Shown: in pieces, positions 42,763-48,081 of the stretch
Position numbering within the stretch: position 1 is the stretch's first letter
Layout: each line of letters begins with the position of its first letter
IMG/VR virus record: IMGVR_UViG_3300006108_000018
Span: 1 to 52,520 of that record
Source of the DNA: a virus
Strand: one strand, 5' to 3'
Length of the DNA: 52,520 bases
Made by a program: the position numbers and the translations under genes
Notes under the pieces: model-generated
Told to the model about the DNA's origin: nothing
What the model saw: only the letters and a program-made list of their open reading frames with translations
The model's database searches: none

Positions 42763-43164
42763 CTATTTGATAATGATTGTCGTTTCGTTGCGGTTGTCTT
42801 TTACTAGTTCATAAAGCGTTGCTGCGTTTTCTGGGGAGAGTCTGACGCATCCGTGACTTGCTGGACGACCCAGGTAACTGACATGAGGAGTAGCGTGAAT
42901 AGCGTAGCCGCCGTTAAAAAAGATTGAATTCGGCATGGGCGCATTGTCGTACTTCTTTGAGTAGTGCATACGTTGAAGGGAGTATGGATAGTAGGTTCCG
43001 GTGGGTGTGTAGTAACCCTTCCGCGCGGTGGAAACAGGCCACACGTCGACCAGCTCACCGTCCTGATAGATCTCCATTGACTGGTGCTTCTTGCTGACGA
43101 CCAGCTCGACGTCGGCTAGAGCGGGAGTAGAAAACATAGCGATAGCGATTAGTAGTCTCTTCAC
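42763..43164 (-). CDS. Exported L,D-transpeptidase (YkuD family), 133 aa
   Basis: Residues 1-18 (MKRLLIAIAMFSTPALA) are a signal peptide with a typical ALA cleavage end. The mature part has the YkuD pattern: LVVSKKHQSMEIYQDGELV, TPTGTYYPY, IFFNGGYAIHATPHV and the active site RPASHGCVRLSPENAATLYELV, with catalytic Cys in HGCVRL. Such enzymes make or exchange 3-3 crosslinks in peptidoglycan, the main crosslinks of polar-growing rhizobia. It starts with GTG after a strong GGAGGG site and follows the 243-aa gene without a gap. In a phage it may reshape, protect or weaken the host wall; this is inference. Confidence 0.9.
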   Translation of the reverse strand: MKRLLIAIAMFSTPALADVELVVSKKHQSMEIYQDGELVDVWPVSTARKGYYTPTGTYYPYSLQRMHYSKKYDNAPMPNSIFFNGGYAIHATPHVSYLGRPASHGCVRLSPENAATLYELVKDNRNETTIIIK

Positions 43165-43896
43165 TCATCCCTCCATAAGGTTGTTCTTGATCTCTTTCAG
43201 AATAGTGCTTCGCTGCTTAGACTCCTGAAAGTACTTGTACCAGTAAGGCATGCGGCTGTACTTGATGCCGATGAAGTCCTTGAGGAGAACGTTCTCTGAC
43301 ATCATCTTAGCCAGCTTAGGAGTCAGTCCGAACTTCTTGAGCGTGATGTTCTCGTCAGTTAGGAAGTTCACGTAGCAGTAGTCGTCGTCCTTAGCGAGTC
43401 TTACCCTTTCAGCCGCGGGATCGATAAGCATGGCACACTCGAGCGGTCTGAACCACTTACCGATGTTGAACCTGCCTGGAATGAGTCTAGCCGACTTCGT
43501 GAAGTCGTTGTTGACGAAGTACGGGCTCGTCGTCATGATCTCTAGAGACTCTTCACAGAAGAATATATACCTGATCTTAGCCGTAATCATACCGTCGGCG
43601 ATGCTTCGAAGATGGAGATAGTTGTCGAAGAACTTCTGATCGTACATCTCAGAGCCGACCTTCTCGCTCTCTCGATCGATCGTAAACTCGTACTCAAATG
43701 GGAACTTGAGTGCGTACGCGTTCTTAGTGGAGTCTTTTACAGCTGGACAGTACTTGATCTTTGTCTGCTCGCCGATGAAGTTCATGTCGCAGATGCGACT
43801 GAAGATATTCTCTGGTTCTGGGCAACAGCTCGATGTGGAAAATGTATCTAGTGACTCATTGAATACGTCTGTAAATGCAGACCAATATACGATCAT
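43165..43896 (-). CDS. Conserved T4-like protein of unknown function, 243 aa
   Basis: A soluble protein without signal peptide, membrane segment or recognisable catalytic motif. Visible landmarks are CCPEPENIFSRICDMNF near the N-terminus with several cysteines, IKYCPAVKDSTKNAYALKFPFEYEF, YFVNNDFTKSARLIPGRFNIGKWFRPLECAMLI and GIKYSRMPYWYKYFQES. It lies between the HNH gene (1-base TAATG overlap) and the L,D-transpeptidase (no gap). The endonuclease upstream may have been inserted before it. Confidence 0.65.
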   Translation of the reverse strand: MIVYWSAFTDVFNESLDTFSTSSCCPEPENIFSRICDMNFIGEQTKIKYCPAVKDSTKNAYALKFPFEYEFTIDRESEKVGSEMYDQKFFDNYLHLRSIADGMITAKIRYIFFCEESLEIMTTSPYFVNNDFTKSARLIPGRFNIGKWFRPLECAMLIDPAAERVRLAKDDDYCYVNFLTDENITLKKFGLTPKLAKMMSENVLLKDFIGIKYSRMPYWYKYFQESKQRSTILKEIKNNLMEG

Positions 43897-44423
43897 TATA
43901 ATACTCCATTAGATTTAATATATGTATCAACAAATCTTTTGACTTGTGTATGACTGCAATTCCATTTTTTACTTAGTCTAGCAGTTTTACCCCATGTGCT
44001 TTGGTCTTTAAAATAGTCATATATTCTAGATTGAATAATCTCTTTGCCTAACTTATTATGACCACCTCCGGCTTTTCCACCTTTTTTACCTGCTTCTTTC
44101 ATCATTTTCTTATATTCTTCTTCACCATATTTATTTTTAGTTCTTTCAAAGATTGAAAGATATGTCCCATTTTCAATTTGATCTATATAATTATCAGTAG
44201 GATTTCCCCAATATAAATGATTTGGATTAGAGCACTTATGATTATGACACGCATGACAAACATAAACTTTTTTATCACCTACAGTAGTTTTAAGATGATG
44301 AGCTAATAAACCTCTAAACAGTCTAGAATCTCCACCTATTTCAATACATAAATCATCAAGATTAAGATGATTTCTTCTCTCGTCTCTATCTTTCAACATA
44401 TATTCGTTTATATCTATAAACAT
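43896..44423 (-). CDS. HNH homing endonuclease, 175 aa
   Basis: The segment LLAHHLKTTVGDKKVYVCHACHNHKCSNPNHLYWGNPTDNYIDQ (about 38-82) is the HNH core, with paired CxxC/H residues (CHACHNHKC) and the catalytic His. The C-terminal part (KTARLSKKWNCSHTQVKRFVDTYIKS) is a helix-turn-helix, which usually gives sequence recognition. It is distinctly AT-rich compared with its neighbours, typical of a mobile gene. It has its own late promoter (TATAAATA at 44447-44454) and GGAGG site, and lies next to a tRNA gene. Confidence 0.9.
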   Translation of the reverse strand: MFIDINEYMLKDRDERRNHLNLDDLCIEIGGDSRLFRGLLAHHLKTTVGDKKVYVCHACHNHKCSNPNHLYWGNPTDNYIDQIENGTYLSIFERTKNKYGEEEYKKMMKEAGKKGGKAGGGHNKLGKEIIQSRIYDYFKDQSTWGKTARLSKKWNCSHTQVKRFVDTYIKSNGVL

Positions 44424-44470: not shown

Positions 44471-44545
44471 TGGTGGTTCCACCAGGATTCGAACCTGGAC
44501 CTAAGGTTTAGAAGACCCCTATGATATCCCTTTCACCATGGAACC
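44471..44545 (-). tRNA. tRNA-Arg (anticodon UCU)
   Basis: The minus strand folds as a full tRNA: acceptor GGTTCCA with TGGAACC, then A and encoded CCA; T-arm CCAGG-TTCGAAT-CCTGG; anticodon stem GGGGT/ACCTT and loop C-T-TCT-A-A, so the anticodon is UCU and reads AGA. AGA is used very often in the phage genes here, so the tRNA probably relieves a codon mismatch with the host. A possible promoter (TTGTAC, 18 bases, TATTAT) lies directly upstream. Confidence 0.95.
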
Positions 44546-44584: not shown

Positions 44585-44731
44585 TTATTTGATCGCGTGA
44601 GTGTCTTTACCCTTGAAGCTCTTCTTCACGATCTTCAGCCAGAGCTTGCGCTCCTTCTTAGCGTCCTTATCGATGATAGCCTTATAGAACTTCATGATAA
44701 GACGCTGTGTCTTACTCAACTTCTTAGACAT
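44585..44731 (-). CDS. Small basic protein, 48 aa
   Basis: The frame follows a GGAG site and starts MSKKLSKTQRLIMKFYKAII; it contains ERKLWLKIVKKSFKGKDTHAIK. About one third of residues are Lys or Arg, suggesting binding to nucleic acid. A similar pattern is known to me from small proteins of T4-like cyanophages, without known function. It lies directly after the tmRNA and before the tRNA-Arg gene. Confidence 0.7.
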   Translation of the reverse strand: MSKKLSKTQRLIMKFYKAIIDKDAKKERKLWLKIVKKSFKGKDTHAIK

Positions 44732-44764
44732 TTGATTTCTCCAGAATTAGTTGCCAGATTCTGT

Positions 44765-45027
44765 TTCTAGGTTCTGGCGGACCCAATGATCATGCTGCTA
44801 GAGCAATCTCAAATGGAGCATTATCATTTGCTGCACCTGTTGTTTGCCTTTAGTCTCCTTACGACTTTACTACATCAGTCGATCCTATTTCTGGCCCAAT
44901 TAAGAACACTCGGTTTGCCTGCTTCCGTATCCCGGAACGGTTTTATGCGAGTGTTCTTATGGTGGACCAGTCGGGTACCGCCCCCGAGTCCTGCATGCTT
45001 ATTCTTCGTCTCTCAACGACCTTGGCA
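44765..45027 (-). ncRNA. ssrA: Two-piece (circularly permuted) tmRNA, alphaproteobacterial type
   Basis: Read on the minus strand, the acceptor piece (about 45027-44960) ends with a T-arm (TCGGG-GGCGGTA-CCCGA, 44987-44971), then CTGGTCC, A and CCA. A spacer of about 62 bases (44959-44898) follows, closed by a perfect 12-bp stem (44901-44912 with 44948-44959). The coding piece starts GGGCCAG at 44897, which pairs with CTGGTCC over 7 bp, including a G3-U70 wobble, the alanine identity signal. The conserved GGATCGAC motif follows. The tag frame 44831-44790 encodes ANDNAPFEIALAA and a stop. These features together define a permuted tmRNA for ribosome rescue and protein tagging. The outer ends are estimates. 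Confidence 0.93.
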
Positions 45028-45032
45028 ATCTC

Positions 45033-45040
45033 TATTTATA
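45033..45040 (-). promoter_or_regulatory. T4-type late promoter of the tmRNA
   Basis: The minus strand reads TATAAATA. Transcription would begin about 6 bases downstream, near the expected 5' end of the tmRNA acceptor piece. Confidence 0.8.
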
Positions 45041-46062: not shown

Positions 46063-46308
46063 CTATTCTACATCGAGCACAGCGTTGACGCTGAGACAAG
46101 TGAACTCGATCCTGTTCTGTTTGCGATCGTAGTGATACGTATACTTTAGAGGAATTCCTCCAGCGTCTGAGCACGCCGCGTCGAACTGCAGCTTGCGGTT
46201 GTAGTCCTCATACGTGCCATACATAACTAGGAGCAGGACTACGACTCCAAGTACCATTATCGTGTTTACCAAAACGTCTATCAGCTTTAACTCTCTGTCT
46301 ATGTTCAT
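46063..46308 (-). CDS. Small membrane protein, 81 aa
   Basis: Residues 10-32 (IDVLVNTIMVLGVVVLLLVMYGTY) form one membrane helix. The remainder contains two cysteines (DAACSDAGGIPLKY and FTCLSV), compatible with a small periplasmic domain. The start overlaps the end of the 374-aa gene (TAATG) with GAGG before it. The function is unknown; phage membrane proteins of this size sometimes affect lysis timing or exclusion, but nothing here shows this. Confidence 0.65.
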   Translation of the reverse strand: MNIDRELKLIDVLVNTIMVLGVVVLLLVMYGTYEDYNRKLQFDAACSDAGGIPLKYTYHYDRKQNRIEFTCLSVNAVLDVE

Positions 46309-47432
46309 TATATCACCCTCAGTAGTATCGTGCTTTCATTAATACGCGACTGTAACGCCGCATTGCGTTTGAGTTCTTGATCGAGCTTTCTAAGAATAAT
46401 TTTTCCGCCATCCAAGACTTTCTTGACCACTTCTTCCGGCTTGCGACCAGTTCGCAGGGTAAAGGACGATGCCTCATCGAATTTAACGATCGAAGCCCCC
46501 TTAACATCGAGACCTCCGCGATCAAGCGCGCGAAATACCGAGATCGTCTTGTACTTCGTATTGAACGTCCAAAGTTCTTGCGCGCCAATGATCTTTTCAG
46601 GATTAACAGACGCAATCTTGAACGCGTTGTCTTCTTTCTGATACTTGAACGACTTAAGTTTCTTCTCGACCGACTGGACTCTCGGTTTTCTAGGCGCGCG
46701 AGTTCTCTTCGCCACTCCGGCATACTTTTCGGCATCATCGCACATAGTAGAGTAGAATTTAATAAGTTTCTGAAGATCGCTCTTTTTGCAGTTTCTATAT
46801 CCCTCTTTGAGCTGCTCATCCTTACCCTCGTACGCCTCGATCAGCTCATCAAGAACTGGTGCCAGTTTAGCAATGATAGATGCAGAGTACGTAGCCGGTA
46901 TGCTGTTACTCTGTAGCCAGTTGTATAGAGAGAACTCTTGATTCTCATGAACGTAGTCGTCGATCATCCCCTCGATCTCACCGAGTATGTCATGCGTCTT
47001 CTCTCTCATGCGATCCTGAATAGATACTACAGGCTTGTCGCTCTTCTCTTCTTTAATCTCTTCTTTAGCCTTAGACCACATGGTCGTGAAGTGACTACCG
47101 ATGAACTGCATCGTGGTGCCGGCAGGCTGGTAGCCGCGATTGATCATGCGACAGAGCCACGCAGCAGTCATAGGTATATCCGTGTCAGATATACGAGAGA
47201 GCTTCTTAGCGAGCTCAGGCTTGCCGGTGTTCTTAAAGTACTCCTTGATGTAGTCGCGCGCGTCTGAGTAGTTGCACATGTAGTTGTACCAAGTCAGCGC
47301 GCGCGCCACGTTGATCTCACCGACCATCACTGGCTCGTCGCCCAGATACTTACCGTTGATCACCTGCTGCTCGGTCTTAGTGGTGCGAGCGACTTTAGGC
47401 TTACTCTTGATCAAGTTAGGGCGACGAGCCAT
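46308..47432 (-). CDS. Conserved T4-like protein of unknown function, 374 aa
   Basis: Two ATG codons (47435, 47432) lie after a GGAG site; the second has the better spacing (MARRPNLIKSKPK). The N-terminal half contains ARALTWYNYMCNYSDARDYIKEYFKNTGKPELAKKLSRI and PMTAAWLCRMINRGYQ, a pattern I associate with conserved hypothetical proteins of T4-like cyanophages. The centre is helical and rich in Lys/Glu, followed by a basic linker (KRTRAPRKPRVQ). It could bind nucleic acid. A perfect sigma-70 promoter (47457-47485) drives it. Confidence 0.7.
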   Translation of the reverse strand: MARRPNLIKSKPKVARTTKTEQQVINGKYLGDEPVMVGEINVARALTWYNYMCNYSDARDYIKEYFKNTGKPELAKKLSRISDTDIPMTAAWLCRMINRGYQPAGTTMQFIGSHFTTMWSKAKEEIKEEKSDKPVVSIQDRMREKTHDILGEIEGMIDDYVHENQEFSLYNWLQSNSIPATYSASIIAKLAPVLDELIEAYEGKDEQLKEGYRNCKKSDLQKLIKFYSTMCDDAEKYAGVAKRTRAPRKPRVQSVEKKLKSFKYQKEDNAFKIASVNPEKIIGAQELWTFNTKYKTISVFRALDRGGLDVKGASIVKFDEASSFTLRTGRKPEEVVKKVLDGGKIILRKLDQELKRNAALQSRINESTILLRVI

Positions 47433-47456
47433 CATTATCTCCAATTGTTATATCAT

Positions 47457-47553: not shown

Positions 47554-48081
47554 ATGACTATTTACCTCTACAAGAAAACTCATAACAAGACGGGATTAAA
47601 ATATCTCGGTAAAACTGTATCATCTAATCCTCATAAGTATCGTGGATCTGGAAAAATATGGTCTTTACATATTAAAAAACATGGTTATGACGTTACTACC
47701 GAGATACTATTTGAGACAGAAGATAAAGACTTATTAAGAGATGTAGGTCTTCACTATTCAAAACTATGGAATGTCGTAGAATCTAAAGATTGGGCCAACT
47801 TAACAGAAGAAAATGGTGATGGTGGTTCAAATGGTTATAATGCAGAAGCTAATAAAAGAAATGCTGTTCTCGGCGCTTATGCAAAAGCCAAAAAGAACTA
47901 TCCGGTATGGAATAAAGGTTTAAAGACCGGTCCTAAATCTAGAGATATAGTAGAAAATTGGCGTAGTAAAGTAGTTGGTAGAGGTTGGTGGAATAATGGT
48001 GCCAAAGAAGTAAAATCTATAGACTGCCCTGGCACCAATTTTGTCAGAGGTAGAATTAAGCGGCGGCCGCATAATCCATAG
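47554..48081 (+). CDS. GIY-YIG homing endonuclease (Seg-like), 175 aa
   Basis: The N-terminus (IYLYKKTHNKTGLKYLGKT) contains the two landmark strands of the GIY-YIG nuclease fold (IYLYK and KYLGKT), followed by HKYRGSGKIWSLHIKKHGYDVTTEILFE and a C-terminal region typical of phage Seg-type enzymes (NLTEENGDGGSNGYN, DCPGTNFVRGR). It is AT-rich and transcribed against its neighbours. It starts after AGGAGA and overlaps the end of the convergent DUF932 gene by 26 bases. It shares its promoter-leader with the gene at 51985. Confidence 0.88.
   Translation: MTIYLYKKTHNKTGLKYLGKTVSSNPHKYRGSGKIWSLHIKKHGYDVTTEILFETEDKDLLRDVGLHYSKLWNVVESKDWANLTEENGDGGSNGYNAEANKRNAVLGAYAKAKKNYPVWNKGLKTGPKSRDIVENWRSKVVGRGWWNNGAKEVKSIDCPGTNFVRGRIKRRPHNP

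Follow-up and report, generated by a model that had tools for sequence, protein, structure and literature searches.

A circularly permuted tmRNA gene in a T4-like phage and predicted protein genes in viral tmRNA spacers

The window analyzed here, the whole of a 52.5-kb IMG/VR virus record that is part of a T4-like myovirus, contains, on its minus strand, a circularly permuted (two-piece) tmRNA gene that is complete and of alphaproteobacterial type (positions 44753–45021; Table 1). Its anatomy, its matches to models, the covariation of its helices, and its conservation in relatives can be demonstrated from the sequence; on this basis, it is judged with high confidence to be a phage ssrA gene of the permuted type that is intact and functional. 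Among viral genes of the same class, the spacer that separates the two tmRNA pieces is often predicted to encode a protein.

Structure, promoter, and genomic setting of the gene

In the Rfam search of the window, the permuted tmRNA model RF04321 was matched over its full length (model positions 1–213 of 213) with 91.8 bits (E 1.7e-16; curated cut-off 47 bits). The alpha tmRNA model RF01849, named as a check in the original prediction, scored 82.7 bits (E 5.5e-21; curated cut-off 50 bits). Divergence in the 5′ and pseudoknot regions keeps this match local (positions 70–183 of 355); in the sister contigs L162 and L165, the same model is matched over positions 1–355. By the E-values of both models, chance is excluded as the source of the predicted tmRNA. 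ARAGORN, the other program named for checking, is a detector rather than a defining feature and reported no tmRNA in the window at default settings; for the correct tag to be returned, the threshold had to be lowered so far that false calls appeared too. The full Rfam structure was not obtained by single-sequence folding of the two pieces with a method that cannot fold pseudoknots, and blastn of the window tmRNA against sequenced phages gave no nucleotide match.

Table 1. Features of the tmRNA gene and its surroundings (window coordinates unless a contig is given)
Feature	Position	Strand	Basis or remark
T4-late-type promoter motif TATAAATA	45033..45040	-	70 nt upstream of acceptor 3′ strand
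Acceptor piece (3′ strand of P2, T-arm, acceptor 3′ strand, CCA)	44960..45021	-	RF04321 and RF01849 matches
Intervening sequence, 62 nt, closed by 12-bp stem, no ORF	44898..44959	-	sequence parse
Coding piece, GGGCCAG to 3′ hairpin	44753..44897	-	7/7 pairing, G3:U70
Acceptor 5′ strand GGGCCAG	44891..44897	-	G3 wobbles with U70
D-loop core GGATCGAC	44878..44885	-	sequence; AAATA directly before, after GGGCCAG
Tag frame AANDNAPFEIALAA and stop TGA, probable resume codon GCA	44790..44834	-	translation
3′ terminal hairpin GCCAGA...TCTGGC, loop CTNGAAACAGAA	44753..44778	-	loop conserved
48-aa basic, lysine-rich ORF (MSKKLSKTQRLIMKFYKAIIDKDAKKERKLWLKIVKKSFKGKDTHAIK), directly downstream of tmRNA	44585..44731	-	86–98% conserved in sister phages
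tRNA-Arg (UCU), next RNA gene downstream	44471..44545	-	tRNA/RNA gene search
HNH homing-endonuclease-like gene in L168 spacer	L168:1075-1530	+	phrog_655

The original prediction had listed the parts of the gene in permuted order on the minus strand, and each of them was located there. The interval then proposed, 44765–45027, stops short of the end of the gene, which was found about 12 nt farther on, at the conserved 3′ hairpin (44778–44753). From 44991 to 44960, the acceptor piece consists of GGAC, the T-arm TCGGG(GGCGGTA)CCCGA, CTGGTCC, A, and CCA. The anticipated perfect 12-bp stem closing the spacer is formed by TAAGAACACTCG and CGAGTGTTCTTA (44948–44959 with 44901–44912). No other perfect 12-bp inverted repeat with a loop of 3–60 nt occurs in the window; block-shuffled copies contained 0–2. 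As had also been foreseen, the first seven bases of the coding piece pair with the acceptor 3′ end: GGGCCAG and CTGGTCC form seven standard pairs out of seven, with the alanine identity pair G:U at position 3:70, and the 7-bp stem is followed by the ACCA end.

The expected tag frame (44834–44790) comprises the codons GCA GCA AAT GAT AAT GCT CCA TTT GAG ATT GCT CTA GCA GCA TGA and reads AANDNAPFEIALAA*. The tags of sister phages are ANDNFAPFDIALAA and ANDNYAPFEIALAA; in the alignment with these, the window tag has one additional GCA codon at the start and one residue fewer after ANDN. Most relatives share the GAAACAGAA loop in the 3′ hairpin, and in L162 and L165 the hairpin aligns with the terminal part of the alpha model.

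The sequence TATAAATA is the core of the T4 late promoter. It occurs 12 times in the window (2.4 expected; 0/100 shuffles reached 12), and most copies lie 23–60 nt ahead of an ORF start. The copy at 45033–45040 is the probable promoter of the tmRNA. Its ATAAATA core is retained upstream of the tmRNA in L161, L162, L165, and L157, of which L157 and L165 have unlike sequences farther upstream; more distant relatives and the phage Melnitz have TTGAC(A/T) plus TATAAA/TATACT pairs instead. Based on the motif, the tmRNA is probably expressed late in the clade of the window. A sigma-70 promoter at the usual place was considered and rejected: no good −35 element precedes TATAAATA, and the lone weak pair nearby (45028–45001) is located inside the gene.

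The phage type is indicated by a gp32-type ssDNA-binding protein (PF08804, 158 bits, Pfam) and by PHROG matches to baseplate wedge, tube cap, hub, tail tube, DNA end protector, and helicase loader proteins. The prediction of a two-piece alphaproteobacterial-type tmRNA in a T4-superfamily phage is upheld by the two Rfam models, the covariation in relatives, and these T4-type gp32, baseplate, and tail genes. The tmRNA gene is situated between a small lipoprotein-like ORF and the 48-aa ORF, with the tRNA-Arg gene farther on. The 48-aa ORF is kept beside the tmRNA in the closest phages only and had no Pfam or PHROG match and no known family. The window also encodes a YkuD-type L,D-transpeptidase with a signal-like start (42763–43164, minus strand; PF03734, 81 bits) and two homing-endonuclease-like genes (43896–44423, minus strand, and 47554–48081, plus strand). 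Each of the latter has TATAAATA 23 or 60 nt ahead of its start, and both stretches are missing from the blastn matches to the sister contig L122.

Conservation in related phages and proposed role

Via the neighboring protein (46308–47444), 27 related contigs were found, of which 21 contain a permuted tmRNA exceeding the cut-off; the closest ones have the same gene neighborhood. Relatives of the neighboring gene occur in phages of Sinorhizobium, Rhizobium, Caulobacter, and Ochrobactrum, and also of Stenotrophomonas and Pseudomonas. In the same neighborhood, the Ochrobactrum phage vB_OspM_OC has an ORF noted by the depositors as a putative alternative ribosome-rescue factor ArfA (L173:6311-6508); this phage has no permuted tmRNA match.

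Among 20 distinct viral sequences including the window, the acceptor stem was paired at 140/140 positions (shuffles: mean 113.7, maximum 122) and the T-stem at 100/100 (mean 72.6, maximum 80), although these proportions are biased upwards because the parser demanded at least 6/7 acceptor and at least 4/5 T-stem pairs. Only parsed sequences were counted, and some relatives whose D-loops vary escaped an initial parser. Three acceptor-stem and four T-stem pairs displayed changes on both sides, and G3:U70 was invariant (20/20). The covariation of the two stems is not a product of the parsing filter alone. In the comparison of the window with L162, the flanks are mostly >90% identical, whereas the tRNA-like domain (45000–44850) is only about 40–70% identical; both acceptor strands are altered together and still pair, with G3:U70 preserved. 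The tRNA-like domain was probably swapped as a block by recombination between close phages.

Rescue during infection is the likeliest role of the phage tmRNA, and the following course is modeled on the known two-piece tmRNA pathway for all steps after transcription. The tmRNA would be transcribed, with its own T4-late-type motif as the probable promoter. The precursor would be processed by RNase P and tRNA 3′-end enzymes of the host, with cuts at GGGCCAG and behind CCA that release the 62-nt spacer. The two pieces would remain paired, and host AlaRS would charge the acceptor with alanine (G3:U70). No SmpB gene was found in the window or in 18 related records, so the tmRNA must use host SmpB, which together with host EF-Tu would load the charged tmRNA onto stalled ribosomes. 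The ribosome would resume at GCA and append AANDNAPFEIALAA, and the product would be degraded by host ClpXP-type proteases. The phage would benefit in that ribosomes halted on mRNAs that are cut or truncated continue to be recycled when the host ssrA becomes limiting or is lost in infection. Ribosome rescue is probably worth carrying in infection, given that a split tmRNA of the phage's own is maintained under selection in a T4-like lineage.

The main role of the tmRNA might instead lie in marking host proteins for degradation and recycling their amino acids, rather than in rescuing ribosomes for phage protein synthesis. Such a role would fit the end of the window tag, ALAA, a ClpXP-type degron, but the tag is canonical and host-like, with no special targeting visible. 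A redirection of this kind was proposed for Melnitz (PMC9004378); that proposal needs early expression, whereas the motif upstream of the gene is of the late type in the clade of the window. As the main function it is considered unlikely, but it would not be mutually exclusive with rescue, and redirection of host proteolysis is not distinguished by the sequence.

It is very improbable that the gene is a nonfunctional relic or passenger, that is, a copy of a host ssrA gained by recombination or left at an attachment site and of no use to the phage. Integrative elements do often bear ssrA fragments (PMC9004378, PMC11915505), but the gene of the window is complete, its paired positions covary, and it is present in 21/27 relatives, in the closest ones at the same place. 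Moreover, the phage type is T4-like, and no tyrosine integrase was found in the window or the related contigs, one of which is 162 kb long; among 18 related records, an integrase is encoded only by Caulobacter phage Cr30. A prophage attachment-site remnant was rejected on the same observations of completeness, conservation, covariation, and missing integrase. As a further option, the gene might produce a decoy that titrates SmpB or blocks the host tmRNA. Mycobacteriophage DS6A has a tag-less tRNA-like domain of this sort, and inhibitory viral tmRNAs of such a kind have been discussed (PMC4131195, PMC11915505). With tag frame, resume region, and 3′ hairpin intact and conserved in the window gene, this option appears extremely unlikely, and rescue is retained as the preferred interpretation.

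Protein genes in viral tmRNA spacers

The permuted tmRNA gene of phages is quite likely a dual-use transcript, in which the excised spacer provides a niche for protein genes and the precursor would act as both tmRNA and mRNA. In two sister lineages, the predicted spacer-borne gene is that of an HNH homing endonuclease; the others are small ORFs that have ribosome-binding sites. The spacer of the window itself is ORF-free, though the gene belongs to the same class. The 514-nt spacer of L168 contains the gene for a 151-aa HNH endonuclease-like protein (phrog_655, E 1.7e-11). A 67% identical HNH protein lies within the permuted tmRNA match of the five contigs L193–L197, around 2001–2462 (L196:216-677).

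The survey of spacer ORFs covered 206 parsed viral genes that had not been selected by spacer sequence and yielded 53 distinct spacers of at least 100 nt. An ATG ORF covered at least 60% of the spacer in 35 of these 53 (shuffles 7.2, maximum 14; reverse strand 11), and a ribosome-binding-like motif was detected for 27 of the 35 ORFs. In spacers of 60–100 nt, an ORF excess was not found. Homologous spacer ORFs formed 18 families in which change is biased toward the third codon position, with 2039/1395/3395 differences at the three positions, summed over pairs that are not independent within families and include some sequences from a pattern favoring AAGGA. Among the most similar pairs listed, dN/dS was mostly about 0.03–0.25. 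These substitution patterns suggest that the small-protein genes of the spacers are often under purifying selection. All ten spacer-ORF genes that were rechecked pass a tmRNA model across the ORF. Examples of spacer ORFs are found in L010, L042, L075, L103, L217, L241, L247, L248, L256, L273, L288, L290, L301, L176, and others; the Melnitz spacer contains a predicted small protein beginning MFKWLSKTRLVVITRDYF.

In single spacers, a tRNA and a repeat element have been noted (PMC11915505). No description of protein-coding tmRNA spacers was found in the literature searched, and such viral spacers are apparently undescribed before. Cultured phages such as Melnitz would allow a direct test of the prediction that the viral tmRNA spacer is often protein-coding.

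Viral two-piece tmRNAs and their detection

A two-piece tmRNA was reportedly described in Caulobacter by Keiler and colleagues in 2000. The gene of the window resembles the alphaproteobacterial two-piece tmRNA (RF01849) in the order of its parts, the T-loop GGCGGUA, the D-loop AAAUAGGAUCGAC, the ANDN...ALAA tag, and the 3′ hairpin with an ACAGAA loop; it differs in being phage-borne and in its acceptor stem, GGGCCAG/CTGGTCC. A T-arm-anchored pattern with this acceptor had 0 matches in 84,980 prokaryote genomes, and an assignment of the host by the acceptor was abandoned after two scans of these genomes without a match. A related acceptor pattern was present in 10 viral stretches.

Phage-encoded two-piece tmRNA is already known, and the gene of the window is a well-preserved further example. 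Two-piece tmRNAs were described in two T4-like phages, Methylophilales phage Melnitz and Pelagibacter phage Mosig, and of 402 phage records with tmRNA, 53 were predicted by ARAGORN to have the two-piece form (PMC9004378); elsewhere, 79 unique phage tmRNA sequences were tabulated (PMC11915505). In IMG/VR, at least 119 stretches matched one exact T-arm pattern, and all 41 of those that were tested passed the permuted model; a second exact T-arm pattern had at least 120 matches. Judged from these matches, two-piece tmRNA genes are common in viruses. The view that the alphaproteobacterial form is unusual in a T4-superfamily phage, expressed in the original prediction, is not borne out by these records or by the alpha-type gene of Rhizobium phage RHph_I1_18. 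ARAGORN called 13 of the 21 relatives exceeding the Rfam cut-off and missed 8; among the 119 listed pattern matches, some of which are cut by contig ends, it called 72. Because many genes are missed, ARAGORN-based counts of these tmRNAs are low, and surveys that rely on the program undercount two-piece phage tmRNA genes.

The Melnitz ssrA (MZ577097; 113.4 bits for RF04321, 106.7 bits for RF01849) is, like that of the window, a permuted alpha-type gene of a T4-like phage with G3:U70 and an alanine tag (ANDNYVPVDYALAA). In contrast to the window, which has only the late-type motif and no match to a glutamine riboswitch in the Rfam search, Melnitz has a TTGACA/TATAAA promoter-like pair and a glutamine riboswitch adjoining ssrA; its spacer comprises 142 nt instead of 62 nt. 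RHph_I1_18 (MN988519, 15520–15713) likewise has an alpha-type permuted tmRNA (60.1 and 60.3 bits), and both this phage and that of the window encode a neighboring phrog_11903-like protein. Unlike in the window, the spacer has just 6 nt and the gene is located inside a tRNA cluster; the sole mention of SsrA in the record is in the note to a tRNA-Ile feature. An unannotated two-piece tmRNA of the beta type was detected in Stenotrophomonas phage DLP_6 (KU682439.2, 102838–103059; 136.8 bits for RF04321, 103.7 bits for RF01850), although the tmRNA of Stenotrophomonas itself is probably of the one-piece form.
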